Assembly: GCA_921293015.1 (NCBI GenBank)
Contig: OV121081.1
Span: 63,195,022 to 63,259,021 of the forward strand
DNA: 64,000 nucleotides
DNA from: Phorcus lineatus
Lineage: Eukaryota; Mollusca; Gastropoda; Trochida; Trochidae
Direction of reading: 5' to 3'
The notes under the pieces are model-generated. The model ran no database searches. It had not been told where the DNA came from and saw nothing but the letters and a program-made list of their open reading frames with translations. How positions within the stretch are numbered: the stretch's first letter is position 1; every line of letters begins with the position of its first letter. Below, piece after piece: positions 21,301-63,400 of the stretch. Both the position numbers and the translations under genes were made by a program.

Positions 21301-24300
21301 CCAACGCTCTGATTAGAACAAAATAATTTATGGAAAACTACGAACAAACGGATGTTTTCATGTTTGGCTTTGATACCTTCCCACATATCACGTGTGCTGA
21401 TATGAATCTAAATTCCAAATTCCAAACATTAATATCTAACAGAAAGCCAAAGAGACTGATCCCTATTTCCATGTATGTGCAGCAGCCAAGGTCACACGTC
21501 CAAGATTCATGGGTAGAGGTTGCTTAACCTTCTAAAAGCGATCCACCTCGTACATTCATCCTATGTGTGGTAATCAAGTTCAACTATGGCCAGCGCTAGC
21601 TACGAAATATTTTCCGGTTTCGAAAAAACATCACGGCGTTTATCTTTATACTTGAAATATTTGAACAGATTGCAATTGATTTGATAATATTCACAACAAA
21701 CTTTTCCCGTGAATGGACTACCATTTATATAGTTTAGTAAATAGGGTCCATTCAAGCAGATTGCCCTTCCCATTTTAGAAAGTTTAAGGAAATAGGGCCG
21801 AATGACAAAACATGGCCTAATGCATGAGCAGTGATGCTATACTACAATCATGGTATAATCTAAGATGATGTGGATTTATCCGGGCCAATACTAGAAGGTT
21901 CAATTAGCTGATTAGGACAGGGGACATATTCTGACACTGACAGTGATTAACCAACTTCCTAGCAAGGCAAAATTGGCGACAGTCCTATTCATTCGTTGAA
22001 TTAAGCCTTGTCGTGCCGTTTTAAACCTTTATGCCTGAACGTGATAGTCCAATATAATGGTTGCATTTGAACACCGTAGAGAGCGCTGCACACAAACCAC
22101 GAACTTGGTTCCAAGCATCAAGGTGGTAACCAGCCAGTAATGGAAACAAGTGCGAATTATGCCTTGCAAGGGAAGACAGAGAAGTGATAAGTCTCACCCG
22201 TCGCACCAGGCGCCCTCCCACTCCGTGTCCCCCCAGGGATTGCGCACCCGGATCAGCTTGGCGGTGGAGTCTTGATGGGGTATCTCCTCGACCCCCGTGA
22301 TCACATACGAGTGGTTGGAGATCATCCCCTTCCTCTCCTGCTCGGCTCTCTCCTCCTTGTCCTGGGGATACAAAGACACGCCCAGGAGTCATTGGAAGGT
22401 AGGTTAGTAAGTGGACATTGGGGGGAAAAGCATCTTTATACGCCTATAGGAGTCTTATCAATACCCCAAATTTCTCTCCTGTCTTTCATTGGTTTTATCT
22501 AAATAAGAAATGATGACGGAGATAACGTAAATAAATGAAGAACAGAAAACAGAAGTTATTTAAGGGTACGGACACTGCCTTGTAAGGCAAGAACACACTC
22601 AAGTCAGCAAGTTTACCTCGACAAGACTTGGCAGTCAAATCCTCTCCGTATGCATAATTAAAGTGGTGTTGCATAATTACTTTCACGAGTGAAGGAGAAA
22701 CAGTTCCAAAGGAGTTCTCAGGTATCTTACTTATTGCACACCATGGATATAACATCTTGCGAAATTAGCATCTTCCAAAGTAGGAGAAACATCTTAAATG
22801 AATACTTATTAATAAGTATTGTTTGTTTGCCTTTCTGAATTTATCTTGAGGCATAATCGGTTATTTTTAAAAGGTAAGCATTACAATTAAAAAATTGTAA
22901 TTCATATCACATCTGTATGATGTCCCTCTGCCTTCATATGTTCATCAAAATTGTAAAGTGAGTTAAAACAGTTCGAGCATGGTATAAGAAGGGACCCACC
23001 ACGCTGAGACAGCCAATGACGGCGCCACACTGGAATGCAGCCCTGATGAGGTAGAAGTCGTGATCCCTCAGATCCACTGGGTTGTACCACTCAGCCAGGC
23101 CTCCCGTCAGATCCGTGAATGCGTCGGCTTCGAACCCATACTCAAGAGCCTCGTAAGAATGGTTCAGTCTGTGCAAGCAGGGAAATATGGTTTTACACAA
23201 TTTGAGATATTAGAAGCCGCAAGTATCCACTCTCAATCGAAACTACTGGCGGCAACTTTACTATGAACACCTTTTAAACATTTAAGGCAGGGAAATTAGG
23301 GGACATGTACCTTTCGTTTGAAATCTGCTTCTGTGATTACAACAGACTGCCTGGAAGTTGGTAACATTTATTTTTGGCAAAACTTAACATTCCAACAAAC
23401 AAATTGAATCAGCTTTGCGAATCTACTGCATCAGCATATTTCTGCCCGAAAAGCTCCTACATTTCCTCGAACAATCCGATCTTTAATCCGGGTACTGCCG
23501 TGTTCGACGGAAGTCATGTCATTGGCTAGTTACATATAGAGCGCAAACAGAGATGGGGTGATGTTAGACCAAAGGACTTACTTGGCGTACACCTTTTCCA
23601 CTAGAGAGACCAAAGGACTTACTTGGCGTACGCCTTCACTCGAGAGACCAAAGGACTTACTTGGCGTACGCCTTCTCCACTAGAGAGACCAAAGGACTTA
23701 CTTGGCGTACGCCTTCTCCACAAGAGAGACCAAATGACTTACTTGGCGTACGCCTTCTCCACTCGAGAGACCAAAGGACTTACTTGGCGTACGCCTTCTC
23801 AACTAGAGAGACCAAAGGACTTACTTGGCGTACGCCTTCTCCACTAGAGAGACCAAAGGACTTACTTAGCGTACGCCTTCTCCACTAGAGAGACCAAAGG
23901 ACTTACTTGGCGTACGCCTTCTCCATTAGAGAGACCAAAGGACTTACTTGGCGTACGCCTTCTTCACTAGAGAGACCAAAGGACTTACTTAGCGTACGCC
24001 TTCTCCACTAGAGAGACCAAAGGACTTACTTGGCGTACGCCTTCTCCACTAGAGAGACCCAGAACTCGTCAGGGTCCGAGGAGTGAGCGAAGAGGATGCT
24101 CCCGTCCACAGTTGGAAGCATGTCGTCGATGATGACGTCGATCCACTCCCCGAACTGCCAGAACCTACAGTGGAATCGTCCGTCATACGCTTCTGTTCCG
24201 AATGTGTTGTCCTCAGGAATGATCTGCAGATCAAAAACAGTTTTTAGTCATCTCAGGCCATCAGACATGATTCCTTATTGTTTGTGGTCCTTACTTCATT

Positions 24301-27300
24301 AGGCATTGATGTTCTTACAGATGTTACGTATCTATCTTACCTAGCAGGTTCTGTTACTAGGATTGTACTTTCTATGCGAGAAAGACCGAATGCTGATTGG
24401 TTGCAAAGCGAGCATTCAACTTGTTCCGTTAACTGTAAGAGGATTGGAACTACAAGACAGGTGCGATATGTCTCTAACTTATATACACGAGACAGAAGTC
24501 AGTCGAAGAGGTACGATTCTTACCCAGCGGGCACAAATATGCCAGGTATTAAAGGACCGAGACTTCAAAACAAATACCTTTTCTTTTCGGGAATGAATCT
24601 GATAAACCTAGTTGTGGTAGTGATTGTTTTTAAAGTATACCTTTCCAACAACATTAAAAGTAGAATTTATCCTGCATTGATTTAAGATTTTCATAGTAAA
24701 TACTTGAAAAAATAACTTTCATGAATCAATACAATATCACAAACGAACAATTTCAAAGAATCAATATTTTGTAAAAAAAATATTCGTTTACGGGTTAATT
24801 ACCTACAGGAAGATGTCACCTTACTTTGACACAATACACCTGTAGTTGTAAATGGCGTCGCTCTGGCGTTGGCGTACAACGTTTCTTTAAGTTCGCCAAC
24901 AAACCATGTGGGGTTTTTTCTAATAACTATAATTTAGAAAATTTATTATGTAATTTAAAGATATTAATCATTTATTGCTTTATAAGATATAATATTTCAT
25001 CGATCGTAAAATATTTCAACAAGTACTCGTTACTGGTTCGTAAACACGTGCAAATTATTCAAACAAAAATAGCAATTTACTTAAACGTCGAGTGATAAAT
25101 AATTCATTCTTTGCGTTATATCCGGAAGCATTTATCTATTGGGATCGCATGACTCCGTGGTTAGATGTTTACACACGCTATCATATTCCACTAAAAACAA
25201 TCGTGTTTTGAAGACTTTTTGTTTTCATTTTCGAGTACCTTTTAGGACTAATTACCCTAATCAAGATCTGTACATATTTGACTGTTCATTATTAAAGTGC
25301 AAACGCTTGAATTTGTTATCTATAGAGATTTGTATAATCTAGTGTTTAATCGTACAGTGTACACACCCTCCAGCAAAACACAAACATCGCACACATTTAA
25401 TCGATGCCACAATCTCCATAATGACAATGGACTCGTGGGTCATTATACAAGCACATGTACCGGCCTGCACTGATAGATTGTCTACTGCCTACCGAGTAAA
25501 CAGTCCATACAACGTTCTCGCCTTGAGATGAAATTAGTTGTTAATCCTGTAGTATCATAACACCGTGCAACACGGGTACAGATCTAGTTCCATATCCGGG
25601 CAACGTCCCTCAGTCTCTCTAGGGGGTCTCTGTTGCTATGGTGCATACAATCATAAGCCAAGTTTAGCCTTTGGCAAATGATATGAAAATAACAACAATT
25701 CGCTATATCCGAACAAAGTGAGTCGCACACATAGCAAATATGGTTATTTGTAATCTGTAGCAGAAAGCTTAACTTTGTGTATATGAATGAAGCCGACCAT
25801 TATCATAATGAATTATATGTCTTTATAATATCAATCCACATGAGTGTACTCTACCTAGGTATATACTCCCTACTACCCATTGTCTGTTAAACTTTACAAA
25901 CATTGTTATTTCACTCAGTGAAAATACGGATTTCATCTTCAAAGATTAATAGCGTATTTGACCATTGAAATTTGGTAAATCATTTTCAATCCATCATTGA
26001 AATTTGACATGATTTGTTTGGGTTTGTCTTTGACTAACCAAAACATAATATAAAACTATTATCAAATTGAGTTATATTAACTTTTTAATTGAAGCATGAT
26101 TCAATATTATCTTGCACTTGATGACTGACTTGATGTAACTGATTAAAATAATTGCGTGTGACAGAGCGATTTCTGCCGATGATTGTGTACGTAATTACAA
26201 ACACAATCCTAAGGTCTGTTGTCGGCGTTATGCTCTTACAAGTAGTATTATTGCCAAGCAGTAGAACAGAATTTTACACCCTTGATACTTAGTTTTTTCT
26301 TCTACTTTAATTACAGTTTAATCAGAAAGAGGACCATTGTCTGCAGCTCTATTCAAAACCTTGTTTGTTACCTCGTTTAGCCATTACATGAAAATTTAAA
26401 TAAGAAACATATCTCACAGAAATTGATAAAAAAAATATACATCTTCAATTTTCATTCCATTTTTAGACTGTCATTACTTAGGGGAATAGAACATGTGTTT
26501 ATTTTTCATCATGTGACCGGATGTACCAGTCATTTAACAATACTTCAGTTAAAACTTATACACGTACACATATTTACAAATTTATTTGACAAACCATGAC
26601 TCTTTTATATCTGAAATAATATATATATATTAATATTTATTCCAGTGTTTTTCCATATGCCCAAGACCGTCTCTAAATATATCCATCAGACGTTATAAAC
26701 CGGTATCCCATGCTACCCTATAGGTGACTCTGCTGGATGGTGAGGGGCATCTGTATAATCATGGAAGTATAACATGTCAATGAAATACAAATCGTGACTT
26801 TCGAAAAATTGTTTTTCGAAAAAAGAGATAATTCACATCAAACACTAATGCCACATCGTGACATCAAAGCAACTTGTGATTGTGATGTGATCACCGTGTG
26901 AGGTTTTCGACATGAAGTGGTCTAATTTTATTCTAACAATCATCAATATTAAACGGAAGTGTAGTCGAACTGTATGCAATCACAAAGCTCTTTGCAGGCT
27001 TTGAACACAAAGGAAACGATATAATTTTGAATGGATATCAGTAGAATTGCCTTTATGTGATGAGTGAGTAAGTTGCGTGTCTGGTCATGGCAAGTTGATG
27101 AAGCATTCATGTTGTAAAATTGAAAAGGTCGACAGAGTTGATTAACAGGAAGTGATTTATGTTGCTGACGAAACCTTCGTTCTTCGTATGATATATATGA
27201 GACTAAATAGAGGACATTAAACATTTTCAGTGTTTTATAAAACATATCACAGCGCGTTTATATTCTGTTAGTAAGAGATTTGGAGGTTCTGGTCTCCAGG

Positions 27301-30300
27301 CCACTTCATATCATTGTCAACTGTCACTTAGCAACGTGGACGACGTGAGATTGAGTGAATATTCTATATCGTCTCGATGATGAGAAAAGAGATATCTCAC
27401 TGCATTAATGAAAAGATTTTTTCCAGATTAAGAAATCGCTTAATTAACAGGGTGTTTTCGGATACTTTAGAAGACGCATGCATGAACTCGCTGTAGGTGC
27501 AAGCTATAAGTCGTATGACCTACTTTATCTGAGTTACTCAGCTATACAGAAACCTATTCCTGCCATCAAGTAGTGTGGCTCATCTGAACAGGAATATAAT
27601 ATTATATTTGTATTCAGTTTTATTTGCGATGAGATTTTATTATAATGTTTTCTTTAAAAAAAGGTTTATCATCTCAATATACGTACAAACGCACTTTCGG
27701 CATCATTAAGAGTTTGTAGCTATAACGACAGACGTTCTCGCTTTAAAGTGAGTTTCGTTACGTGCCATTTTATCTTTAAACGTTAATGTTTGATATCTGA
27801 TTTTATTCATCCTAGCAAAGTTGGAATTTACACTCTAAACACAGGCATCAGATAATATTTTCTGTTAAACGATTGTAGAAAAAGAGGATATTTTAGATCT
27901 AAGTATAGTATAGAAGGATATAGAAAGATACATTATAGCACAACCGTTATTAGGCCGTAGGGTTAGATAAGACTACATAGAATTAAGTTTACCTTGCCGG
28001 ACATTTGCTGAAACGTGGTTTCTATGGAAAATCCTAAGCAATATCGTACACTAGGTGTCGTTTCGGGACTTCATATTCACAAAACGCATTGGACACATTT
28101 AGGACATTGATTTTGTCAAATCACCCAACTCATTCGTATCTACTTCAAAGTTGACTAGAAATTCCAGCTTTCATTATATTCATTGGGAGTGAAAAGACAT
28201 TAATAACTTAAAAACCTTCTAAAAGAAAATCAAGTATACTTTTAGATAATTGTTCTAGGAAATCGTACACAATTTATCGGAATTTAAACGTTATTTAGAA
28301 GTTGATGAGAAGGATGTGGAGGCAATTTGAGCAGAGCCGCTAGAGAATTGGGTACTGACCAAAACAGATGATGTCAAACAACGAGGGGTAAGATGTAATC
28401 GCCTTAAAACGCAGGAGCCTGAGCTGAAAGAAGCTCTCTTTCTATGTTTCAAAGATCATGACAAACATGTAGAGAATTACATCAATATGAGAGATTGCGA
28501 CTTAGCACGGATGAAGGTGAAGGGAATATCTGAGATCTCGCTCAAGATCAGAGGTTCCCGCCTTCGCGCGGTCTGAAAACGTCTCGGCACGTCGGCCCGG
28601 AAGATTACTCATCAAGACAAACAAGACTTGACCATAACAAAATGTCCGCGGTGTGCAACATTCCGACAGGAGGCGGCCAGTAGGATGCTACCAACAAGAG
28701 GCGGTCCTGATATGATATCCTTCTACAGATGGTGTCTGATTCAGAGGCTTCAATTTTCCTATCTTCAAGCTCCAGTTCCTTTCGGCTATGTGGTGTAGGC
28801 GAGTTTGGTGAAGAAGTGGCAGAAGCTCAACTCCAGGCTGAGGGATCTTTCTCAGCTGAAGCTGAAGGCTTGATCAACTCAAGAGGAAAATATCGAACTT
28901 CATCCGTCGGGTCGCTCACTGCAGAAGTTGAAGATTGAGCACTCAACTAAGCATGAGATGGAGACCGCCAACATGTACAGTTGTGTTTTGTTATGTAGGT
29001 TTGTCGTGGTACAAATGCTTTCGATTGGTGTTACTTTGATAAATTTGAATGATAAATTTTATTCTTATATATGGAAAAACTGGATAAACAAAAGAATCCT
29101 TCTCATCGTTTGTATGAGATATCACATGTTGACATATCACTTTCACAGGTTATGTCTTATGTTTAACGAGAACAGACTTTAGTGTTGAGAAGTGTCTAGT
29201 TCCCACCACATCCCTTCATCACATCTTCAAACTGATGTAGCACATCTGAACTAATAACGTTATGTCGTTTAAGCGTTTAACAGTATTGTTACCGAAGGAT
29301 TGGTTTTTTAAGGAAATTAAGGGAATAAGATGTTTTTATTGAATGCTTCTGTCAGTTAAATACCCTATCATCTTCATCGGTCGGGGAGTAACGACCCCTT
29401 AAAGAGTGAATAAAAGCAAATACAAATTGTATGAGGTAACATGTATAAATTACTTTAGGTAACATTAAACCTTTTCCTCATAGCATGTGACGAGAATCAT
29501 CATCATCTATCATTTCCAGCTGCGCTTTAAAGCTTGAAAAGAAACCAGCACTCGTTTAAGTTAATGAGGGAAACATTCTTTGCAAAAAACGGTTTTCTAT
29601 CTCCAAAAATACCTACTTTAGCCATGAGCTGTGGTTTCTCTGCTATGGCTGAGAGGGTGGAGAGGAACCAGCAATCGTTCAGGTCGCCTTGCTTCATGTC
29701 GTGACGACTTGTTCCATCGGTAATAAGACTCGGTTTCCCGGACAACTCCTGTAATGGGAGCAGCATATAACATTTAATAGGTATTGATTAAAAAAGAAGA
29801 TTATAAATCTCATTTGGAAAAAAAATCTATTATACGACAACGAATAAACTCAATTAGGTATTGATAGACAAAGACAGTACATGAACGGATCTCATTTGGA
29901 AAAATCTTCAACAGGTCTACGACCAGTATCAATATAGGGGGATTTTTCATTTCTTAAAGGGTTAACTGGCGCTGAATTAGGTGCCTTATCTCATTGCCGG
30001 AGCTTGGTATTTTCTAATCAAGCCTTGAATATTCTTTGATCTCAAAAAGTTTAACCAAATAACTGAGTCTCTTCAGGTGCGCTCTGGTGCTGAGCTCTTG
30101 CAAAATGCGAGGTACAATGAATAATATCACATAAGCTGCATACAATTATCATTTGTGTCCAAAAAATAGCACCAAACTAAACGTTACTCTAAAACTCATG
30201 GTGTATTTGCCTTAGCGTTTACACATCACGTTTTACTATCAATATGTATATTCATATTGATTTCAACATTCGTGACTTGAATGGTCGAATATTTTCTTTT

Positions 30301-45182: not shown

Positions 45183-45259
45183 TCTCATTGAATCAGATCG
45201 AAACAATCACTCGTAACTCACGAGGAACGAGTGATAAATTCGATCTGATTTCAATGAGA
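45183..45259. repeat. Foldback palindrome
   Basis: Arms 45183-45214 and 45227-45259 are near-perfect inverted repeats (TCTCATTGAATCAGATCG against CGATCTGATTTCAATGAGA) with a 12-bp loop. Confidence 0.85.
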
Positions 45260-45949
45260 TTGTTTGCTGAGATTGTTCGCCTTAGATTTGTCACCGGTAC
45301 CTGTTGGTTCTGTTAAGGATTTTTGTCCTTCAACAACCACGTCTTGTTTTTTGAGGTTTTTTTGTTGTTGTTGTTGTGTTAAAGATCTTCATGAGAAAGT
45401 TTCTTCCTTCTGTCCGTTATCCTTGACTGCTGTGAGATCTCTCTGGAATAGGAAAGATCTGATAAAATACAGTTATCGGTATATATATGTATATAGAGGC
45501 CAGCTATTCAAAGCATTCATCCACTCATTTAGCAATGAGCAGTCACTCTGCGACCATTCGGCTGCGTCATTGTTTTCTACCTTTCGGATTTACCAGCCAG
45601 ATTCATCTTAAAGACTGATCTCTCAACTGGTGTTTTACCAAGGAATTTGGTGTATATGTTTTCACCAGCTTTTTGTGACTCTATACCTATTTGTATTAGT
45701 TTATATTGTGACTTTTTTCGTGTTTTATTAATAAAATCTAATTGTAATTACATTCAATTTTTGTCATATTTTTCTGGTTTGAGTATGGACATTTTCCTAT
45801 TCTCTAGAATCCTAGACTCACATGTGACATTCTGAATATAAGATAACACGTTCTATGAGTAGATCACTGCTACTATGAAGCTGAATTCGTCTTCTACTTA
45901 CATACGACTACAGAAAGTACAGAAACGTTCATTATTTTCTTTGTTATAT

Positions 45950-50564: not shown

Positions 50565-50656
50565 TCTTCAAATTACCATCGCTGAAGACGGAAATATTTA
50601 TTTTAATTTTTCTTCAAATTACCATCGCTGAAGACGGAAATATTTATTTTAATTTT
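50565..50656. repeat. 46-bp perfect tandem duplication
   Basis: TCTTCAAATTACCATCGCTG at 50565 repeats at 50611. It lies about 540-630 bp upstream of the CREB3 start codon. Confidence 0.93.
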
Positions 50657-50760
50657 ATTTCCATTTTTAAAAAAAGGAGTTTACCTCTTTTAAAACCATA
50701 TTCATCGTTTTCGGAAAACTGTTCTATATTGTTCGGTAGATTTCGGAATTTTACGGAAGT

Positions 50761-50769
50761 TCCACGTCA
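50761..50769 (-). promoter_or_regulatory. UPRE-like site TGACGTGGA
   Basis: The minus strand reads TGACGTGGA, the unfolded-protein-response element core (TGACGTGG/A) bound by XBP1, ATF6 and CREB3-family factors. A CCAAT box follows at 50786-50790. About 430 bp upstream of the CREB3 ATG. Confidence 0.5.
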
Positions 50770-50900
50770 ATCCGGATGTTGTGGCCCAATTACTCCGTAC
50801 CTCGACACACAAGGAATCGCTTAGCTGCTGTTCACATTTGAGACTTCGCTAACCGTGTGATGAGTTTCATCGATGAGTTGAGCAAATGCTAAATTTAGCA

Positions 50901-50908
50901 TCACGTCA
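50901..50908 (-). promoter_or_regulatory. UPRE-like site TGACGTGA
   Basis: The minus strand reads TGACGTGA, matching the UPRE consensus TGACGTG(G/A). About 290 bp upstream of the CREB3 ATG. Confidence 0.45.
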
Positions 50909-51096
50909 ACGAAAGAAAGACTTCCCTTGGATATTACAATTAGAGATTAGTCATTTAGTAATTTACAACTAACGATATCATTACTTTGTTTCACTTGGAT
51001 CATATTTCGCTATTTGACAAACTTTTTGTCTCTGATTTCTGTTATTAATGTTGTCATAGAGTTTGCGGAAGTGGAAGTTTGCACAACAAGGCGGCC

Positions 51097-51126
51097 ATGT
51101 CCGTTTGGCCAACTGACTGGGAATGA
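51097..51126 (+). other. Possible upstream ORF in CREB3 5' leader
   Basis: ATG in context GCGGCCATGT opens nine codons (MSVWPTDWE) and ends at TGA 51124-51126, 70 nt before the main ATG. It matters only if transcription starts upstream of it. Confidence 0.35.
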
Positions 51127-51130
51127 CGTG
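51124..51130 (+). promoter_or_regulatory. UPRE/CRE-like core TGACGTG
   Basis: Third TGACGTG core, 65 bp upstream of the CREB3 ATG; it overlaps the stop of the possible upstream ORF. It could be promoter or transcribed leader. Confidence 0.4.
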
Positions 51131-51195
51131 TCTATAACTACAACACAAACCTTGACACGACAAAGATTACGCTGATATAAACATTCTCGGTTAAG

Positions 51196-51297
51196 ATGGC
51201 GGTTCAACCTCCCCCCAACCAGATTTTGGATCTTCTTTTCGATCACGACGATGGTGTTTTGAAAGAGGAACTCAAAGATGTTCAAACCATAGATTTT
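51196..51297 (+). CDS. CREB3: CREB3 exon 1
   Basis: Start ATG in AAGATGG context. 34 codons beginning [20 protein letters not shown]; acidic and hydrophobic, as in CREB3 activation domains. Donor TTT|GTAAGT. Confidence 0.9.
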
Positions 51298-54200
51298 GTA
51301 AGTTTCTTGCTTCTGCACTATCACTTACAGATATGTGCGCATTACCTTCTTTATTTCATCATCTAAATGTTGTGTTGTCTTCCGACACGTATGAACAACT
51401 GACACGATATAAACACGCTGATCACACTGGTGATTCACTAGAGGCTGCCAAACGCTTACTCCACATTGCTTTTATAACGATGGTTGCAGCTGCTGCATGT
51501 TGATCACATTGTGTCTTGTTTTGGATTGTGACATAGTTTTGATAAGATGGCGACAAACTGTCATTAAATATGATACTTAAGAAAATATTATGTTTGATAT
51601 CGATGATATTGTGATATTGGAAAACAACTTGACACATGGTGAACTAGCAGACTGTCGTACATATTGTGAAATCATCTGATATCAAACATCAAGGTGTTGA
51701 TCACATTCCCAGTGTCTTCCCTCTATGGTGCCAGGGGATGTTGATAGTTCATTATTGAGATAAACTCTGGACAGTACTTTTCACAAGGACACAGTTGACT
51801 TACCATTGCCTGCAAATGTTAATATATTTGTAATTGTCATACAGTTTTTGATGATAGTTTACAAATCATTGTTGAATATGCATCCTAGTGATAAGATACT
51901 ATTTACGGGACTTGCTGCTATGTCCGCGTTAGATCTTGATGTCGCCAGGAGTGGGAGCCCGACTGCAATGTGGGATATGGTCGCTGTGGGTATTAGCTGT
52001 TGTAGCTTATGGTTGTCTGTAACATCAGCAGTTACTGGTCTTATTTCTAAGGCTACTTTTATAATGAAACATTTGCCCTTTATGTTACTGCAGTTTATTT
52101 ATTAAAACCTTTGATTAGAATTTTTTATTCATTGAATGCATGAAAGATTTTGAATGTCAAACTCACTTTTCCTTACATGATTTTCTTTTGATTTTGTTTG
52201 ATAGTGCATGCAAGGTTGGTAAGTATCCTCTTCATAACCAAAGAGACAAATTATTTTTCTCATATGTGTTCTAGCATTATCTGTATATCGGAAGAAGTAT
52301 ATGTATTATCTGATGCCATAGGATATATTGATCTACCAGCTTCATTATTCAGAATCAAATTGTGATTGTTTGACTTTTTTTCACAGAATGACCTTGATAT
52401 TGACCTCCTTCAAGACAGCTTGTTTGACTCGCTCGGATTGTTGACAGAAGAACAAAACGTGAAACAGACAAAAAATGATGACAATTCACATAGAGTGCAC
52501 TCAGACCATGATTACTTCTGCCAGAAATCCCCGAGCCAGCACAGTGACAGCGGCGTGTCTCTAGACTCGATGGGGGACTCACCGAGAACATCCACTGGCT
52601 CCCCTCCAAGTCAGGATGACTTGGAAACTGTGTCTAGTGATGGACTTCTTTCAGATTCAATCAACAGCCAATCACAGTTCCTGACACAGACAATTGTCCA
52701 ATCAGATTCAAGCACACTTGCCTTGGAGGATATAAATATGCAAGATATCAATGTGGACTTTACTGGAGTCAGTTCCTCAGATTTCATGGACACTTTTGAT
52801 TTTCTGTCCACAAATAAGGATGTGTCAGTCAATCTTGGTAAGTCCTTTAAGTAATAACTCAATTTATTTGACAATAGAATTCTTCAAATGGAAAAAATGG
52901 TATTTAGGCCTACCTAACAGTGAATGTTGAACAAGTCCTGTTACTCAAATGCACTGAAACAGGGTTGAAATCATGAAGATCAGAAAAAAAAAGTTTGAAA
53001 ACAGACCCCTATCAAACTTGGAGCTGACATGGGGAAATAAAAAACAAAACATATTATTTGAAATATGAAACAAGTAGTGAGATTTATTGATACACAAGTT
53101 AAGGTAATGGTAACTGAACGTAAGAAATGGAACTGAATGATTATTTATCTTCTATTCTAGTGAAAATTATTGTACGAAATTTTGAGCTTTTAAGATCTCT
53201 TCTGTTAAATGGTACATCAGATGATTTTGATTACGATCATTAATTTATCTAATCATTTCATTTCTTTGTGACTGTGGATGAAAGATGGAAATAAATGGAT
53301 TTAAGATATTCATCTTGACACTACCAACTGTATACTTTATTAACCATAACTTGATTGTTTGCAAAATGCTGTCTAGATGTTGTAACAATGATATAGTGAA
53401 GATAACCAGTCAGGGTGACATAAAAGTATATAACATTGTGTTTGTTAACAGATTCAGACAGTGACACAACAGCAGACGCGTCATATATCACCGTGAGCAC
53501 CGGAGAACAGAAGGGAGTTCAGATTCTAAAGCTGACCTCCAAGAATGACTCTCTTCCCTTCACAATGCGGGACGTTAGTCCAGAGGTCTCCAGCACCACC
53601 AAGGTATTGCACTGACATTTTCAAAAGAAAAGAATTTGCACAAGCAATTGAATAGAATTCAACAGATTAAACTAAAACTTTGGTTAAAAACTTGATGTAT
53701 TTGATGTACGATATGTTTCTTAAACATAATTGACACACCCCTTGTGTCCCAGTTCCCAGACCTACAGCTAACAGAGGAGGAGAAAGACCTGCTGACTAAA
53801 GAGGGCGTGGCACTCCCGTCCCACATGCCTCTCACCAAGGAGGAGGAACGGGTGCTGAAAGCTGTGCGCAGGAAGATCAGGAACAAGGTCAGATGCTTTT
53901 CTTTGTTCTCCACGATAGGTCTGTGGTTGAATAACTCTTAGTTTACCTGCTAAACTAGGTAATAAGCAATCTTTGAATGTCTGAATTACAGGAACTGCAG
54001 CTTGTTAGAAAAGAGATAAGTTTGATTGACCATAGACAAATGGTTCCTTTGTCATAAACATGTTCATATGATAAGCAAATGTTTGAAACTCATGAAAATG
54101 TAAATCCAAAAACACTTATATATGATTTCTATTTTCTTAAGTCTGTTTCACACCTAGTGTTTCCAACATTCTTTCTCAACTTGTTTTAATAGCTGTTGAT

Positions 54201-55912
54201 CATGGTCCACAATCTGATCTCACTACTTGACCACTGTACCAATTGAAAAGCATCATAGGCTCCTTGTAGTGTTTGGTCAAATGAAAAGTGTTTATCTTCA
54301 AATCTGTTAATTTTAAACTCCACAAATATAAAGATTTGTACAAAATGCTGCAGGTGTCTGCGAAGGAGAGTCGTAAGAGAAAGATCGAGTATGTTGACGG
54401 TTTGGAGCGGCGAGTGAAGATCTGTACGAGTGAGAACCAGCAGCTGCACAAGAAGGTGGAGGCCCTGGAAAAACAGAATGTGTGAGTGTTTACTGATGTG
54501 TACATATCTTCTTGCAATGTGGAGTCATCTTTGTTAAATTGTTGACTTGTTCAATATAAAAAAAATATGAATAATTTGGTCTGCAATCATCATTAATTAA
54601 TTAATTAAGTAATGATTACATATGATACCAGAATACTACTTCTTGACTTGAGCGTCTATGAACCTTGTGGGGAATTTATAGTTAAAAAAAGACATTTCGT
54701 TATTGAACAGTATTTATGATTAATTCATTAAGAAATGTCATGGAGTATTTTAAAAGTTTGGCTACACAATAAATGTTAATTTTTTAAAAATTTGATAAAA
54801 CTTTCAGCTTCTTTGTAGGATATAAATATACTGGACAAAAATAATTAGTGATATATGAAAATTCTGAAATTATCAACAGTAACATATTTTTACATTGATC
54901 ACCTGATGAAATATTTATCATAAAATTGACAATATCCCTAACTTATTTTGTTCTTTATTTATATATATATATATATATATAGGTAAAAAAAAATTCTGCT
55001 GGCAAAAGATAGGGCTCGACAGGATATTCCAGGTTTTATCGGTTTAAAAGTTGTTTGTTGAAAGTCAGATCTGCCTGTCAAGGGTTAACTGTTTAGGTGT
55101 TCATGGGTATTGTCTGGCCCTTTACAGCACTCTGCTGACCCAGTTGAAGAAGCTGCAAATGCTGGTGACCTCCAAGTCAGGTCGCCCTGCCCAGACCACG
55201 ACCTGTCTAGCGGTGCTGCTCCTCTCATTTGCGCTCCTCGTCATCCCAAGCTTCAACCCCTTCTCTAGAAGCAGCTCCATGTCTGAACTCAAACAGATGC
55301 CCATGCCTGGTAAGCCCTGTGATTTAGTTAATACTCTGTCATGTCTTAACAAAATAAAATTCCCATCAGATCAGAAGCTTCCCTTCATGGTATATTTTGG
55401 TCCAGTCAAACATCAATGGTTAACAGAGCCTTGCTGCTTCTCATCTTAGTTCTTGCTTTGAGGGATGCGGCCTCTCAGATTTCTGAAGATCTGGCACAGA
55501 AAAAATGATGAAATGCAGCTTTATTCTGTTGAAAGAGGCACCCCATTGTAATGATAAACTCATTCATAGTTTTCTCATTCCAGGCAAGTCAAGAAGTCTC
55601 CTGACAACGTCCGACCCGCTAATGAACAATGATGCAGATCCATATGGGGTGTCTGTAAAACCAGGTCCTCCTTGGGACGTGAAAACTCCCGCCGTTAAAA
55701 CAATGAGTGGACGACTGCCTGCAGAACCAAGAGCCTTTGTGGATGTCATGGAAACAGATTCCAATGAGACAGATCATGAATTGAATGCAGTAACTCCTGC
55801 GGTCCAAATAGAGGGAGCTTCTGATCTACATGAGAATACACAGGACGAGGATACGTACCAAACAGGGCAACTATCTCATCGCAAACAAAAGTTGGAACAG
55901 GTGGATCTATGA
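51196..55912 (+). CDS. CREB3: CREB3/Luman-type membrane-bound bZIP transcription factor (whole gene)
   Basis: CREB3-family proteins sit in the ER membrane, move to the Golgi under stress, are cut by Site-1 and Site-2 proteases, and release a bZIP factor to the nucleus. Coding exons: 51196-51297, 52387-52837, 53452-53603, 53753-53887, 54354-54481, 55128-55309, 55584-55912; phases agree, 492 aa. Residues 1-235 form an acidic activation region including [20 protein letters not shown], a family-typical block. The basic region spans exons 4-5 ([18 protein letters not shown]279-x7-R287), followed by a leucine zipper to about 335. A single membrane span is at about 346-365 ([17 protein letters not shown]), with RSLL at 387-390 as a Site-1-protease-like RxxL. 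Exact paralogue (CREB3 versus CREB3L) was not resolved. Confidence 0.95.
52387..52837 (+). CDS. CREB3: CREB3 exon 2
   Basis: Acceptor TTTTCACAG, donor CTTG|GTAAGT. Encodes [19 protein letters not shown] and the conserved [20 protein letters not shown], with many Ser/Asp residues. Confidence 0.95.
53452..53603 (+). CDS. CREB3: CREB3 exon 3
   Basis: Acceptor TTGTTAACAG, donor AAG|GTATTG. Encodes [20 protein letters not shown] and a linker toward the bZIP. Confidence 0.9.
53753..53887 (+). CDS. CREB3: CREB3 exon 4 (bZIP upstream region)
   Basis: Acceptor TGTGTCCCAG, donor AAG|GTCAGA. Encodes [20 protein letters not shown] and [19 protein letters not shown], the conserved CREB3-family extension and first half of the basic region. 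Confidence 0.96.
54354..54481 (+). CDS. CREB3: CREB3 exon 5 (basic region, zipper)
   Basis: Acceptor AATGCTGCAG, donor AATGT|GTGAGT. Encodes [20 protein letters not shown] and the zipper, close to CREB3 vertebrate proteins. Confidence 0.96.
54958..54982. repeat. (TA)n microsatellite
   Basis: About 12 TA repeats in CREB3 intron 5. Confidence 0.95.
55128..55309 (+). CDS. CREB3: CREB3 exon 6 (zipper end, membrane span)
   Basis: Acceptor CCCTTTACAG, donor CCTG|GTAAGC. Encodes [20 protein letters not shown], then the hydrophobic [18 protein letters not shown]. Confidence 0.95.
55584..55912 (+). CDS. CREB3: CREB3 exon 7 (lumenal tail, stop)
   Basis: Acceptor CTCATTCCAG. Encodes [20 protein letters not shown] and the lumenal C-terminus; TGA at 55910-55912. 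Confidence 0.93.
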
Positions 55913-56316
55913 CTATCTTAAGGCCTATAAATCCTGTTGAAAAGTTTTAATCATGGCAGCAGAAATTGTCACCTGCTCGTGTAGTAAAGATCATCTTGAG
56001 GTTACAATACTAGCTCAGTTCACCTAACATCAGATACAACGTGCTGCTAAGAGAATATCGTGCTCAGGACTAACTCTTTCATCCTTAATCTCCCAATCAC
56101 TCGTCTTTCTTTCATTACAAAGTTAAGCATTTCCGGGTCAACAAGTATGATGATGAGCAATCACTGAATTATTTGTTATTACTTTACAATGATCTAAAAT
56201 TATATCCAGACTTACACAGAATGTAGTATAGTTATCCTTGTTTCTATGGCTTTTCTTTCATTGGTGAAATTTTATCAAGATTGAGGAAGAATGTTGTAGT
56301 TCATTCATCATTCATC

Positions 56317-56436
56317 TACATTACCACAGGAATTCTTATGTAATATGTTAATTCTTTCATTGCCAGCTGATCCTGCTACATTATCACAGGAATCCTTATG
56401 TAATCTGTTAATTCTCTCATTGCTAGCTATCCTGGC
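56317..56436. repeat. 60-bp tandem duplication in CREB3 3' UTR
   Basis: TACATTACCACAGGAATTCT at 56317 and TACATTATCACAGGAATCCT at 56377 start two diverged copies. Confidence 0.85.
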
Positions 56437-56868
56437 ATGTGTACATGAGTGATGTTCTGATTAAAATGTTCACAAGTAGTCTTTAAGATTCACAATTTCA
56501 GTTAAGTAAGTGTTTGATATTGACAATCTGAGAAATTACATCCACACCACAACTGTCAATTTCAACTAATCCCAGTGAAATCAGAGATCAGCTGATTCAA
56601 CTTCTCTATAAAAAAATGCTTGTATATTCTAGGGTGTTGTAGTTACACGTGCAGGACAGATTTATAATTATTGTGTTCATGATCTGCGGCACCAATCACT
56701 CGTCTGTACAGTGGATCTCAGTGACTGTACCTGGGGTAAATTGTGCATTAGCTTGTACATACTCATTTGACTAGTGAGCATATTTTTATTGTCAGTGGTA
56801 TATATTGTCTCAGTGCTGTATGAATTGTTGATTTTTGTTTGTGAATGATATATTTCTCATGTTTACAG

Positions 56869-56874
56869 AATAAA
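56869..56874 (+). terminator. CREB3 poly(A) signal AATAAA
   Basis: AATAAA followed within 20 bp by a GTTTTTGTAAAAA run; likely the 3' end of CREB3. Confidence 0.6.
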
Positions 56875-57205
56875 TCATGTTTTTGTAAAAAAAAATAATT
56901 TTTTTATCCTTCCCGTAACATATGTATGTAACTGAAGCGATAAAAATATGAGTTCGATAAAACCAGGATCGGCAGATTTAAACCAGCTTTTTATGAAAGT
57001 CTACCTCCTTTAGTTGCTAGATTTGGGGATAGATTCTTATACTGTCTTCGAGAGGCATTTTCAACTGTAGGCTATCATACCTTTTCAAGTATACAGATTA
57101 AAGATTATTCCAGGTAATAATGGAAGGTTATTTAGATGTGTTAAAACTCTTTACACCAAGATACTACTCAAACAACAAACAAACAATGTCTAATGTACAT
57201 TGATA

Positions 57206-57211
57206 TTTATT
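57206..57211 (-). terminator. NOL6 poly(A) signal AATAAA
   Basis: The minus strand reads AATAAA about 120 nt beyond the NOL6 stop codon. Confidence 0.6.
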
Positions 57212-57331
57212 GTGATGATTGAAACACTGATCAAATGTCTTATGTTCTTGATCAACTTATATAACGCATATAATTTCACTATCATCTTTGGGACTTCCTC
57301 TAACTTCACATAATATCTATATATTTTGGAG

Positions 57332-57478
57332 TTATTTCTCCAAAATTTCAATGTTGGCAACAAGCCCCTTGCCCATTATTTGAAAGTCATTGATAATAGC
57401 ATCCAGATTGACTTTGAGCGACACATTATCAGATGTAACATTCTCCGTGTCCGGCATGCAACCTCCCACTTCAGACAC
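57332..57478 (-). CDS. NOL6: NOL6 last exon
   Basis: Acceptor GTGTTGCAG. 48 codons with VSLKVNLDAIINDFQIMGKG and ending ANIEILEK, TAA at 57334-57332. Confidence 0.93.
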   Translation of the reverse strand: MSEVGGCMPDTENVTSDNVSLKVNLDAIINDFQIMGKGLVANIEILEK

Positions 57479-60400
57479 CTGCAACACAAGACACAGGGCA
57501 CTATAGATCAAATAATGACAGCATAACCATCAGGTTGTTATGGTAATGCGGGTATAAAAGCAACTTTGAAAATGATTCACAGAAGTTCATTCAGGGGTAG
57601 ATTTTGTTGAAATGGCCTTTTTCTCTTTTTTTAAAGATGCCTTTATTAGGTTAAGATATGTATTCTTTTGGACTACAATATATCTTGTATCCACTAAAAT
57701 CAGTAAGGTGATGTGGGGTTTAACTCCGTTTTAAAGAGTATTTCACTTTTTTCACAGCTGGTAGTCTTACTGCAGGGAAATAGCCTTTGTGGTGAAACCT
57801 GTGAGCATCGGCTGGAACTAGCGAACCTTGGGTAGTACTGCACTGAAATTCTTTGTGGCATTGGCCCTAAAACTTACTGTGTGTAGAACAGTTTTCAACT
57901 ACAGACAAAGTTGCCGAGCCCCTGGGGGGTTTTGAACCACCAACCTCTAAATTCAAAGCCGAATGCGCAGAAAAGAGCTTGAAGCACCATCCATTTTCAT
58001 TAAGAGCCCAATACCTAATGTTATCGTACATCTAGGAGTGTTTGCTCCTGTAGACTGGCCACTTACAGTCGTTAGTTCTAGCCTCATGGTGCCATCAATG
58101 CGATTAAGTACTGAACATATTCTAAACATTTCAGATTTGTCAGACAAATTCAATTTACCTTAAAGTCTCTAACTTCCTTAGCTCTTGGCTTCCAAACCAC
58201 TCCAATGAATGATCCACCAAACTTGTCGTAGAAAAAAAGAGCAACCTCATCAAAGGCACCCTGAAAAACATCAAAGGAAGAAAGCATCAGTCACCCGAGC
58301 TCCTCCTCTACGGTTGAATTTCTTATATAGGTGTTTATTTTGGATATCTAAGTGTTGAACAATAAAGTTATTGCTTGTGTTGAAAAGATTATCAAAACCA
58401 AACTCAACTCAATAGTACTGACTCCGGGAAATTGGATGGAATCCATACATTCTCGATTTATTGAAAACCTTATTTATTAACTCACAAGAAGCAACCCACA
58501 CCAACCTTGAGTTCCTGCAGGTAGAACTGGACTGGATCGTAGTCCAAAACTGGCATCAGCTTTCGCCAGGTGCTCTCAGACTCTCTCGCGGGAATCTTTG
58601 TTGTCATGGAAATGTCCACGGCTTGGTGTTGTCGAGGCAACTGTCTGTTCTTCAGGTGGATGATGAGGTCGAAGGCATCAAGAGGAGGTCTGAAGATTGT
58701 CTGTACCAAGAAATATAACAACCACATGAGCATAAACTTTCATTTTACAAACTTCATTTCAGGAATACAATATGCAACATTATCAAAAGTGATATTTGAG
58801 ATTGCAGAAAGAATATCCTTTTTGAGACAATCCTTCTGGTGGGACTTCAAAATTGCCCTTCAATTGAAAATAATTTTAAAATACAGAAGAATCGTAACAA
58901 TACAGTTAGTAAGTGTTCACTGTCAAATACCAGCAAGCTAACATTGAGATATGAATCATGAGTCACACATGTATCAATCTCACCTTAAAGTCGGCATCCA
59001 TAAAGTCTGAGAGTATTTGTCCCTCAAGAACCTGGCTAGACTCGCGGGCCAGTAGGACCACTCGCTGAAGGAGGGGAGCGGTGGGGCTGTCTCTCGTCCA
59101 GTGAGAGCTTAGAGGGTCCTGCTTGGTGCACAGACTCATTAAGGGGAAGCTACTCCGCTCTGATGCGAACCGGTTGTGTAGCTCAGATATCTCATCTTCT
59201 GCAAAATAATTTATTACAGTGAAGGTTTCTCTAAAAATTCAGTTTATGGTAGTGTACAAAGTATTTTATGAACCTTTTAGGCTTGTAGAAATCTAAAGTA
59301 GAAATATTAACCAGAGGAAAAGTAGTACTGCTACCTAATACAATGCAAGACAAGAGTGATGCAGAGTAGAGCATCAGCAGCACAAGTTTTGGGCTATATT
59401 GCAGTGATATCTGCTCATACTGACAGTAGTGGTATAGAAAAGGGGATCCATAATTACTTGGAGAAACAATTAGCAGGCAGGATAACATTTTTATATGCGC
59501 TTAAGACATATCTGAGAAGCAAACTATTCATCCTAAGTATATGTAGCCATTTCAAAATACCAAGATATTCAAAATTGATTGAATTCAACTCAGATTTTGG
59601 ATGATGACTTACTGGTGAACTCCTTGTTGAGGTTGACGACGAGAGGCTGAGTCTTCCAGTCATGTGTGGAGAGAAGAGTCAGGAAGCGCAGGAAGCCGAC
59701 CACGGGGGACCTACAACATTCCAACATTTGCTAATCTTTCTATATAACACTGCTTGTGGAGAAATACACGCAAGATTAGTAATGGCCCTCTCACTCCACA
59801 ACAACACTTAAGATTGTTGAACTCAATTGTATCATGGGAACACATATACACGAGGTGCAGTTAATCAACATTTTACATGGGAGTTGCATTATGGGAACAC
59901 ATATACACAAGATGCAGTCAATCAACATTTTACATGGGAGTTGCATTATGGGAACACAGTAAGTGCAGAAACTCCATGTCTTACATAAAGTTGAACTACA
60001 TATGATGTCCGTAGAAGTCTCACTGTGACAGTGAGTCTTCACGGCGGTACACTGTGAAGATATGAATCAAGAGTCCAAAAAGAAGTACAAAATCTCAAAC
60101 TTGATAACAATTCAATCAAACAGGTTCTTAAGGACTTTCTCGTTATTAACCTGTATACCCCGTTCAGTTCTAGCAAGAAGACTAGTTTGATATTCCAAGC
60201 AGATTAAGGATAACAGTTTAAGGTACCTAAGAGACTGATCAAATGTCTAAAACATCCAGCCTCTGAAGATAACATACCCAGGTACAGTGTAGGGGGCGGG
60301 GTGCTGAAGATAACATACCCAGGTACAGTGTAGGGGGCGGGGTGCTGAAGGTAACATACCCAGGTACAGTGTAGGGGGCGGGGTGCTGAAGATAACATAC

Positions 60401-63400
60401 CCAGGTACAGTGTAGGGGGCGGGGTGCTGAAGATAACATAACCAGGTACAGTGTAGGGGGCGGGGTGTTGAAGATAACATACCCAGGTACAGTGTAGGGG
60501 GCGGGGTGCTAAAGATAACATACCCAGGTACAGTGTAGGGGGCGGGGTGCTGAAGATAACATAACCAGGTACAGTGTAGGGGGCGGGGTGTTGAAGATAA
60601 CATACCCAGGTACAGTGTAGGGGGCGGGGTGCATGTAGACAGAGGCCACGAGTAGCTCCACTGCTTCCTCCGCGATGTGGTCGAGCATCATGTGACTAGC
60701 GACCCAGCGTTTAGCCAGCCTCACGGCCCCGCTGTATGTGTTGTGCTGCTGATGTATGCTGCAACGGAGAGAGCACGAGAGGAACTACTGCACTGATCAA
60801 TTTGATACAATACAGAATGTGATGAGGGGCACATGCCTGATCACTGCTCGAAATAGGCCTGAAAAGTTGATAGCCTAAAAAATCCCATCATATTGATTTA
60901 CTTAATTCCAATGGAAAAACAAAGAAATCTATTAACATGATTATCTTATTAATTTGAAGTCATTTCTAAAAATATCTGATTTTTCAGTCTGTATTTTCTT
61001 GCAATCTTAACATTGATTCTGGTAAATTCAATGCTTCATGTATTATCTATGTGTATATACATTCAAACCATTGTTTAGAGAAAATGGTTAATTGTATCAC
61101 ATGAGTAACAATGTCTCACCCATGCAGTGTGCTGGTGAGTTTCGGTCGCCCGCTGTATTCCCTCTGTAGCATCTTGGACTCTTCCGTGTCCTTGGACTGT
61201 ACCACTCCCTCCACAGTGATGGACATTTTAGCTAGAGTTATCTCCCTCATGTGACCGATCACAAGGCGGAAGACGAAACCATCCTATAGTTTGATATGAA
61301 ATGGGATATTATATGTCATGATGAAATGATTACTAAACTAACCTTATTTCAAAACAAACATACACAATCCAAATAACAGCAAAAGTCGAGCATATTTCTA
61401 TTAAGTCATATTCTAAGAACAATTTACACCTATTCCAAAGCTAAGTTGTCAAAGATTTTGAAAACTCAATATCCTAAAATATTATTACTGCCAAGATATT
61501 ATAACATCCCCATGTCCCAAACTCTTATCACAGATTCAAGTGTATTACATTGTTACTGAAATAAATTTATCACTGATCCATTTATACTGTACTTACCTTG
61601 AGGACGTCAAGATGGGTGGGTGCGACTCGGACAAAGAGAGAGGGGTCTTTCTTCCTCACAGAAAAGGAGAGTTGAATGTAGAACGCAGCCTTAAGACGCC
61701 GAATAGCTTCCAAATCATCAGGCCATTTGCCGCTTCCTTCAAGCTTACACATCACTGCAAATACAAACATTTTCAGCATGTTTTTATGTCAAAATTACAT
61801 ACATGGATTTTGTAATGGAATGATTTGATTGTGATAATGACTAGATAATAAAGAATATATACTAAAAGTATTAAGTTAACTGCATAATTCAGCCTTTTTG
61901 TGTCACAAGTAGAGGTGCAACACAATTCACGTGCCCTTTCTTCATGAATAGCCTTCACCTAAGCCTTGTTGTCAATTAGATCCTCAAATTCAACCAGTGG
62001 TACAAATGCGTATCACTCAGGATACTGTGTAGTAGAAAGAAGACCAACCTTTCAGCGAGGGCAGGTAGAAGGGAGCTGGTTTGTCCGGGTGAGGCAGGAA
62101 CTCCGACCCTGCTGACGCATTTGTTGTCTGAATGTTCCTCGGGATCGCCGGCATAGCTGGGAACACCTTCAGTAGACAATAGATTTGATGTGTAAATTGG
62201 TTTGAACTTCAATCAATATGTCTAAATATACTAAGGTAAACCTGGTGAAATTAATAACTTCCATCAAAGGTCTTATTTGTTCTAAAGACAAGGAGTTCAA
62301 ATCTCCCATTAGACCTGTGAAGGTAAAAATAGTTTGGGAATGAAAACATCATAAAATGGAAAGTCCACTGCTCTATGATTTTAAAGTAAATATGAGAGAA
62401 ACCGTTAAACATTGGCATCGCCAATGCAACGCTCTGACATCAGGAAGTCGCTTAATAAAGACATATTGCTGGAAAATATCTCCCTATCCTATTTCTCATT
62501 TAGTTCAAATTGATCCTTTAAGATCGATGGTTATGACTTTCACTTCAAATTCAAGATCCTAGGGCCATTAGTTATTTCAATCATACTCAGTTTCCATGAA
62601 GCTTCCTCACCTCAGAAAACCTGAAGACTGGGGCAACGCCCTGCACAGTTTTGACAGTGAGCGGGAGATCGTCCAGCTTGTGGAGGAGTTTGCTGAGCTG
62701 GTCCAGACTCTGTATGACTGCCATGTGCTCCTCCTCACCCGTTCCATACACAGAGTTGTCTCCCTTGGGCTTGGGGAGATGGAGGAGAGGATCAAGCTGG
62801 CTGCCCATGAAGTGGATTTGGCTCGGGGGGACGGCGGCATGTCTAGGTGCACACAGATTATTGGATTAGTATAAATCAAAAGACAATATTGCTAGCTTGC
62901 ATCTTGAAAGATGAGTAAAATTTCATTTGCTTTCATTCATACAAGTTCTAGCTCCTATCTCACCCTTGATTTAACCTTATAAAACAAAATCTACCTTGGG
63001 CAATATTATTTCCATATATATTATTTGTTGGTGTTAAACAAAATCTACCTCATGATAATAAAAATTCTTGAATTAAAAATTTTTTAAAAAGAAAATCAAA
63101 AAAGGCTTTGTAGCATTTAAATTTAATAGATTTAAAACAAACAAAATTAATACTGATGTGATTTTTTAAAATGATTTGAGCTAAAGATATTTCAACAAAC
63201 ATTATGTTTTATTTCATTCCCCAATGAAAGTACCTACCTGTTGAGGATATGTTTGACTACTTTAGCACAAATGAGTCTCCGGCGACACATGAGGGTTGAA
63301 TTGGTCCAAACAACAGCCTCGTGGATAGAGCTGTCCTGGAACCTCCGCAACTCTGACTTGTCTCCCCACATCTCTCGAAACTCGGCTGCCTTAAGTGACA

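Follow-up and report, generated by a model that had tools for sequence, protein, structure and literature searches.

Two 41-bp minisatellites at exon ends in Phorcus lineatus as probable mirage-type arrays

Does a minisatellite that carries a splice donor in its units serve the gene that hosts it, or is it an ordinary array that happened to begin over an exon end? The question is raised by a stretch of 64,000 nucleotides of the gastropod Phorcus lineatus (contig OV121081.1, positions 63,195,022 to 63,259,021; the window from here on), in which a calpain gene and NOL6/Nrap both contain such arrays. The original prediction described two arrays of period 41, unrelated in sequence, each unit holding an exon end plus a donor, and the tandem repeat finder (TRF) and the units agreed on all of this. 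Our analysis concerns what the units do, how often such arrays recur and how they may have originated.

Anatomy and splicing of the two arrays

The calpain features are the following (in all junctions below a slash marks the splice site).

23566..24059, minus strand: calpain 41-bp minisatellite, 12 copies and a 5-bp partial copy, from the end of exon 4 into the start of intron 4 (TRF and units)
24030..24226, minus strand: calpain exon 4, homology-matched part (tblastn of P0001; PDB calpains)
24030..24059, minus strand: exonic part of calpain copy 1, 30 bp, the end of exon 4 (units, homology, in-silico splicing)
24019..24029, minus strand: intronic part of calpain copy 1 with the donor (GTAAGTCCTTT), the sole frame-keeping calpain donor in silico
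23000..23168, minus strand: calpain exon 5, joined to the copy-1 donor, AA/A giving K (tblastn, in-silico splicing)

And those of NOL6/Nrap:

60263..60631, minus strand: NOL6/Nrap 41-bp minisatellite, 9 full copies, from the exon end into the intron start (TRF and units)
60606..60757, minus strand: NOL6 exon terminating in the array, homology-matched part (tblastn of P0024/P0025)
60606..60631, minus strand: exonic part of NOL6 copy 1, 26 bp, HPAPYTVPG (units, tblastn, in-silico splicing)
60591..60605, minus strand: intronic part of NOL6 copy 1 with the donor (GTATGTTATCTTCAA), the sole frame-keeping NOL6 donor in silico
59613..59710, minus strand: next NOL6 exon, SPVVGFLRFL..NKEFT, acceptor TGTAG/G (PDB 7mq8 match, tblastn); by eye, its own donor reads ACCA/GTAAGT

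The first gene matched PDB calpains (best E 6.6e-36), and a Haliotis protein was 83% identical across 90% of a 73-aa query; the second matched nucleolar protein 6 (PDB 7mq8, E 2e-08). TRF gave period 41 for both, with 12.1 copies and 94% matches at 23566-24059, and 9.0 copies and 96% matches at 60263-60632. In gene orientation the calpain unit reads GGTCTCTCTAGTGGAGAAGGCGTACGCCAA / GTAAGTCCTTT, 30 exonic and 11 intronic bp, and the NOL6 unit CACCCCGCCCCCTACACTGTACCTGG / GTATGTTATCTTCAG, 26 exonic and 15 intronic bp. The units are so unalike that a common ancestor of the two arrays was ruled out. Both do lie at exon-intron borders, as had been claimed, but they do not start exactly there: they begin 30 and 26 bp before, with the border inside copy 1.

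In-silico splicing singled out that first copy. In calpain the junction AA/GTAAGT with CACAG/ACTGAAC gives K-L-N, and copy 1 was the only one of 12 donors with an open frame into exon 5. In NOL6, CCTGG/GTATGT with TGTAG/GTCCCC gives P-G-S-P, and again copy 1 alone preserved the frame (1/9). As in mirages, the tandem duplications of exon-intron boundaries known from amphioxus, the unit of both arrays spans such a boundary and the edge copy is, in silico, the authentic in-frame one; the downstream copies of both are predicted intronic decoy donors. The NOL6 array was also considered as coding, having long ORFs in all 3 frames, but splicing from later copies meets stops or leaves the frame in silico.

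The copies have diverged. Among the 8 NOL6 decoy donors, 2 have decayed to TTATGT (copies 2 and 5), and the pattern of copies 1-2 appears again in copies 4-5, pointing to block turnover. Variants among NOL6 copies are located in the intronic 15 bp and those of calpain nearly all within the exonic 30 bp, so that conservation of the exonic part was discarded as a sign of selection, there being no shared pattern. One of the 12 calpain copies has a 3-bp deletion in the hand-read units. Such differences (point changes and the deletion), together with the many independent arrays of this kind and assembly contigs of tens of megabases, make it extremely improbable that reads were collapsed or duplicated at exon ends during assembly; nothing direct favours this artefact, although one lancelet mirage was seemingly misassembled in a genome draft (PMC3087553).

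Could the units be splicing cassettes, working in recursive or mini-exon splicing, as decoy donors that tune expression or as intermediates of intron gain? GTAAGT is intact in 12/12 calpain copies, CAG/GTAAGT is found in every unit shown for three arrays elsewhere in the genome (L023, L026 and L030), and mirages have been proposed as an intron-gain route (PMC3087553). However, intact donors are expected in a young array even without selection, the 2 NOL6 decoys are already lost, and no downstream donor gives the peptide of the next exon in frame in silico. The acceptor-miniexon-donor structure originally proposed for each unit does not hold either: the acceptor-like AGs scored 5.7 and 3.7, which is weak beside the 4.9-14.1 of 18 real acceptors; the weaker was equalled in 1262 of 5000 random 41-mers made tandem. 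The former 22+19 split of the calpain unit had taken coding CTAG for an acceptor, and a single 19- or 26-nt mini-exon from the array would shift the frame. We regard a cassette role as highly unlikely.

Exon-end arrays elsewhere and their period

The expectation that exon-end arrays recur was borne out. An exon-like 3' end was found at the array start in 9 of 31 other donor-motif arrays with the 5' flank read, while GTAAGT sites drawn from random DNA had one in 2 of 120 cases (Fisher P 9e-6), a comparison confounded on the donor-array side by genic density. All 21 exons used to train the exon score came from this window, and its cut-off of 7 was chosen after the scores had been seen; with 10 as the stricter alternative the figures were 5/31 against 0/120 (P 3e-4), and a comparison with 3000 random positions, 3.5% of which passed, gave P 0.005. 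The arrays fetched were 20 of the 21 period-41 loci listed, the 21st being the calpain array of the window itself, and 11 of the 13 distinct AGGTAAGT arrays listed, omitting a low-complexity one and a relative of L024. The AGGTAAGT control in random DNA comprised just 5 sites, 0 of them exon-like.

Units were read by hand, since the automatic edge-finder misplaced calpain and some others owing to indels and cut flanks. The first copy was set by eye in L047, L053 and L051, where automatic placement would score 10.6, 18.3 and 5.4. L045 scored 8.4 and was counted as a miss because its "exon" was array sequence. The acceptor of L023 is weak (3.9), and this array went undetected in an earlier run whose acceptor limit was stricter; L024 scored 12.3 in that run, a score that the later run did not reproduce. 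For NOL6 exon 7 the automatic donor was wrong, and its low score excluded it from the matrix.

Mirage-bearing genes are calpain, NOL6, an Alg9-family mannosyltransferase and a DUF2615 gene, further ones being less certain. Pfam backs two of the nine exon-end arrays. Among seven short peptides searched against Pfam six had no match, nor had the ORFs of L023 and L032; in PDB neither L023 nor L032 had a credible match with its short exon peptides (the L032 hits summed many tiny repeat matches), and L030 had none.

The period of 41 bp, thought to be special, proved not to be so, as exon-end arrays detected with the period left free had 28, 31, 37 and 50 bp. Tandem AGGTAAGT arrays among the matches listed (the first ~100 of 350) had periods of 25-50, none of 41. 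Long arrays in random DNA had periods of 48, 36, 23, 36, 40, 25 and 62, and TRF found 36 bp common to two unrelated non-splice arrays of the window. Exact period-41 triples numbered 117 for GTAAGT and 319 for the reversed motif, with 142 and 312 single motifs in 264 kb. Given the varied periods and the triple counts, a 41-bp rule was dropped. Distinct arrays were counted by hand among the first ~100 matches listed of 350, 364 and 117.

Proposed origin and the placement of arrays at donors

Both arrays are, in our judgement, quite probably mirage-type minisatellites. Each would have begun as a unit that by chance covered an exon 3' end and 5' splice site, and would then have undergone ordinary turnover and been tolerated. 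A short local duplication would have arisen first, in calpain by slippage or unequal exchange at the 5-bp direct repeat GGTCT. The calpain array terminates in a 5-bp partial copy, GGTCT, which is the footprint that a model cited in PMC3389668, with flanking repeats of 5-10 bp slipping against each other, would leave. At the NOL6 edge the hand-read units bear no slippage footprint, and the founding duplication there may have used at most 1 bp of homology. The duplication would then have expanded into the intron by ordinary minisatellite turnover, with copy 1 retaining the exon and a working donor and everything downstream presumably spliced out as intron; this role of copy 1 is why the array would be tolerated. 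Further copies would be decoy donors, of putative function at most. Per donor the event would be rare, and many cases could be yielded by a genome rich in introns and in 25-60 bp minisatellites. Random stretches held 7 long minisatellites of period 10-100 in 240 kb, which scales to ~28,000, and with a guessed 100,000-250,000 donors per genome random placement predicts ~105-262 exon-end arrays.

The window itself, with 12 minisatellites and 19 donors, has more cases than pure random placement provides: 0.12-0.18 founder units are expected over a donor, and the probability of at least two is 0.007-0.015 (0.026-0.054 if any splice site is counted). When whole arrays were dropped randomly in both gene spans, roughly half of the 20,000 trials had at least two arrays touching a donor. 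All these figures are post hoc, the window having been chosen for the pattern.

These two cases inside one window, and the 9/31 against 2/120 given above, are what speaks for donors as true hotspots, where something at exon 3' ends, be it transcription, splicing or R-loops, provokes local tandem duplication and creates a donor-specific class. Against it, tandem triples of the donor motif were no commoner than those of its reversal (350 and 364 matches; 117 and 319 at period 41), in a test of low resolution, since true donors are scarce among GTAAGT sites (2/120 exon-like). Minisatellites also seem denser in the genic window (6 strong ones in 64 kb against 7 in 240 kb), which alone possibly accounts for a ~3-fold excess. 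A true-donor share of 0.18 makes 5/20 unremarkable (P 0.28), and among the 11 AGGTAAGT arrays true donors may be expected to be frequent anyway, judging from 8 sites in 264 kb and the donor number above. Published mirages lie at acceptors too (PMC3087553). The R-loop origin suggested in the original prediction receives no support from this analysis: the coding-strand GC skew was -0.39 in the NOL6 unit, whose C-rich RNA is unfavourable for R-loops, and +0.14, nearly balanced, in calpain. On the whole we consider a donor hotspot unlikely. It is equally doubtful that mollusc exon 3' ends are birthplaces of minisatellites beyond gene density, with mirages as an instance of an animal-wide duplication coupled to splicing or transcription by which introns would steadily grow at their 5' side and decoy donors become available to intron gain.

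There is a hint of a preference of arrays for genes or donors beyond random placement. The donor octamer AGGTAAGT may be tandem somewhat oftener per single occurrence than its reversal, with 10 against 13 hand-counted arrays (in the stretch that both lists of matches cover) for 8 against 18 single sites in 264 kb, which are small counts.

Comparison with known systems

The original paper on the Adh mirage is reportedly that of Canestro et al. 2002 (NAR 30:2871). The original prediction knew of no described class of this form, but minisatellites at exon ends are not new: they match the amphioxus mirages, and human counterparts exist. The accounts of mirages in PMC3087553 and PMC3902484 describe tandem duplications of exon-intron boundaries in Adh3, the globins BflGb6 and BflGb9, TnC and PGBD5, which reportedly leave splicing undisturbed. 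As here, these are minisatellite-like, many of their units carry AG/GT signals, and the Adh3 units of 10-72 bp bracket the 41 bp of the calpain and NOL6 arrays. They differ in that RT-PCR and somatic length instability are reported for them (PMC3087553, PMC3902484), whereas our host is a mollusc, the donor side was examined and the arrays are known from the DNA of one assembly alone. Block patterns within arrays of this assembly suggest turnover. The literature consulted presents mirages chiefly as a peculiarity of lancelets and as a path by which introns are proposed to be gained; several of them in one mollusc genome suggest that they originate wherever introns and minisatellites abound. On the practical side, each mirage gives gene predictors a row of false donors.

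In humans, internal tandem repeats with units of ~30 bp on average cross exon-intron boundaries in segmental duplications, according to PMC2812944. They resemble our arrays as minisatellites over such boundaries and alter intron structure; they belong to recent paralogues, with alternative transcripts in 66% of intron cases, whereas ours are in conserved genes and were seen at the level of DNA. The human 6-16/IFI6 minisatellite (Turri et al. 1995 NAR 23:1854) supplies multiple splice donors, as related in PMC4526556. Here too tandem units carry donors at an exon end, but two downstream units of 6-16/IFI6 are said to act as donors, while downstream donor use in our genes would break the protein. 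Finally, intron gain by tandem duplication of AGGT-containing segments, with the Rogers model, potato RdRp and fission yeast 24-bp arrays as the cases treated in PMC4974935, likewise duplicates splice signals in tandem. There the duplication makes a new intron, whereas here an existing intron seems to have been extended at its 5' end.

Two minisatellites across donor sites

The two 41-bp arrays lie in two genes (n=2), calpain and NOL6/Nrap, both on the minus strand of the window (G000:C1:63195022-63259021, in an assembly of 957.8 Mb and 74 contigs). The DNA is that of a mollusc. The calpain exon had its three best relatives in the gastropods Haliotis, Patella and Gigantopelta (83% identity each), and a scallop protein likewise reached 83%. 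The splice border within both units was fixed from homology and the downstream exons.

Features of the array-bearing genes (the slash marks the splice border)
39.6, 30.6, 29.7, 24.2, 23.2, 22.4, 18.5, 16.6, 13.7, 12.5 kb, minus strand: calpain exons, tblastn with the Haliotis protein
23566-24059, minus strand: calpain array, 12 copies of GGTCTCTCTAGTGGAGAAGGCGTACGCCAA / GTAAGTCCTTT, plus GGTCT
63.8 to 57.3 kb, minus strand: NOL6/Nrap exons; gene identified by PDB 7mq8 'Nucleolar protein 6' and by relatives
60263-60631, minus strand: NOL6 array, 9 copies of CACCCCGCCCCCTACACTGTACCTGG / GTATGTTATCTTCAG

The original prediction of two exon-end arrays was correct: the units span the splice border, and in both arrays the real exon end is copy 1, the remaining copies being intronic. 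The donor is intact in 12/12 calpain copies and 7/9 NOL6 copies. When each copy was joined in silico to the next exon, an open in-frame product came from copy 1 only (1/12 and 1/9, respectively). The same NOL6 intron holds a 57-bp repeat of 2-3 copies (59827-59986), some 280 bp from the array. On the plus strand, the ORF list yielded by eye candidate mariner-like transposase fragments (around 1096-2000) and candidate exons similar to those of a bZIP transcription factor of CREB3/ATF type (around 52366-55909).

Each unit had also been read as an acceptor-miniexon-donor cassette, a resemblance that looks coincidental. Using matrices derived from the two genes (16 other donors, 18 acceptors), the array donors scored 7.7 and 6.8 against 4.8-12.1 for real donors, and the acceptor-like AGs scored 5.7 and 3.7 against 4.9-14.1 for real acceptors. 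The donor is present because the unit spans a border, and the AG is what chance often yields: in 1262/5000 random 41-mers made tandem, an AG equalled or exceeded the weaker of the two in score.

Array period and recurrence in the genome

The period of 41 bp, thought to be special, looks accidental as well. The calpain introns contain two unrelated non-splice minisatellites (16808-17529 and 20455-21205), both of 36 bp. Random stretches totalling 240 kb held seven long arrays (period 10-100, at least 3.5 copies, TRF score at least 200, four satellites of 145-170 bp excluded), with periods of 48, 36, 23, 36, 40, 25 and 62. Therefore, long arrays of this genome commonly have periods of 35-50 bp. 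The 36-bp period appeared again in unrelated random-DNA arrays (L007, 8161-8592; L017, 5684-6229) and is a common one here. Among the random stretches, L006 (G000:C1:13500001-13510000) consists throughout of 60 copies of a 167-bp satellite (97% matches), and L015 has a 170-bp satellite of 13 copies.

Searching the genome for three tandem AGGTAAGT (periods 20-50) gave 350 matches, counted per copy, against 364 for the reversed motif; among the matches listed (about 100 of 350) the periods were 25-50 and none was 41. Triples of GTAAGT at exactly 41 bp gave 117 matches against 319 for the reversed motif, while single motifs numbered 142 against 312 in 264 kb. Distinct arrays, counted by hand among the matches listed in the stretch common to both sets, were 10 for the donor octamer and 13 for its reversal (single octamers in 264 kb, 8 and 18). 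The reversed-motif control does not decide between chance and a preference for donors, because true donors are few among GTAAGT sites. One 41-bp GTAAGT array is present twice, about 30 kb apart (G000:C1:2000552-2002949 and 2030619-2032213), in what looks like a recent segmental copy.

We read the 5' flanks of 31 arrays elsewhere in the genome, 11 of AGGTAAGT and 20 of period-41 GTAAGT. An exon-like 3' end stood at the array start in 4/11 and 5/20, respectively.

Arrays starting at an exon-like 3' end
L030, 37-bp period: Alg9-family mannosyltransferase (PF03901, E 6e-22), matched up to the final complete codon ahead of the array
L026, 28-bp period
L032, 50-bp period
L023, 31-bp period, less sure
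L051, period 41: PF11027/DUF2615 (E 9e-11), array beginning at the donor itself
L053, L046, L055 and L039, period 41

Under one scoring scheme, 9/31 arrays had an exon score of at least 7, compared with 2/120 GTAAGT sites from random DNA totalling about 230 kb (Fisher P = 9e-6) and 5.3% of 3000 random positions (P = 3e-5); a tenth array, L045, was counted as a miss, its score coming from array-derived sequence. At a score of at least 10 the values were 5/31, 0/120 (P = 3e-4) and 3.5% (P = 0.005). The cut-off was chosen post hoc with the data already seen, and three array positions were set by eye. Of the exons of the window, 18/20 scored at least 7. Exon-end arrays do recur in this genome.

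L026 (G000:C1:57758001-57758901) has about 45 copies. Its exon-internal AAGTCAAA is found again in the donor's own GTAAGTCAAA, with 8 bp in common, so the direct repeat that founded the array may have had the donor itself as one of its two sides. The units of L023, L026 and L030 carry CAG/GTAAGT, which looks like a putative recursive-splicing (zero-length exon) site in tandem.

Birth of the arrays

Since the calpain array terminates in a 5-bp partial unit, the 41 bp were probably flanked by GGTCT on either side in its single-copy ancestor. Flanking repeats of this kind, 5-10 bp long, are the setting proposed for minisatellites to start by slippage or unequal exchange (PMC3389668). The NOL6 array has a footprint homology of at most 1 bp, and its copies 4-5 repeat the variant pattern of copies 1-2, as in block-wise turnover. 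An R-loop-type mechanism, suggested before, found no support: the coding strand has a GC skew of -0.39 in NOL6, where it is C-rich, and of +0.14 in calpain, where it is nearly balanced, which does not favour R-loops.

Most likely, a minisatellite would be born at random across a donor and would then be tolerated. Seven long arrays per 240 kb scale up to about 28,000, and for an assumed 100,000-250,000 donors random placement predicts 105-262 exon-end arrays, so that many are expected anyway. A hotspot, that is, a preference for donors in array birth, is a live rival. The excess of 9/31 over 2/120 could mean such a preference, or simply one for genes: the 64 kb of the genic window hold 6 strong arrays, whereas random DNA has 7 in 240 kb. 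For the period-41 arrays, 5/20 has P = 0.28 if genic density lifts the expected proportion of true donors among GTAAGT sites to 0.18, and P = 0.006 if that proportion is 0.06.

Relation to mirages

The class is real, and although no described class of exactly this form was known at first, the name already exists. PMC3087553 and PMC3902484 describe amphioxus "mirages", tandem repeats across exon-intron boundaries in Adh3 (units of 10-72 bp), the globins BflGb6 and BflGb9, TnC and PGBD5. There, both 5' and 3' boundaries are hit, the repeats reportedly leave splicing undisturbed and are unstable in length, and a model of intron gain was derived from them; related intron-gain cases appear in PMC4974935. 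In humans, minisatellites at exon-intron boundaries have been catalogued (PMC2812944), and that of 6-16/IFI6 gives rise to multiple donors (Turri et al. 1995, as cited in PMC4526556). Among the titles and abstract starts listed from the open-access literature there was no report of mollusc mirages, which is weak evidence of absence. To the known systems this adds several mirages in one mollusc, together with a clear method of counting them.
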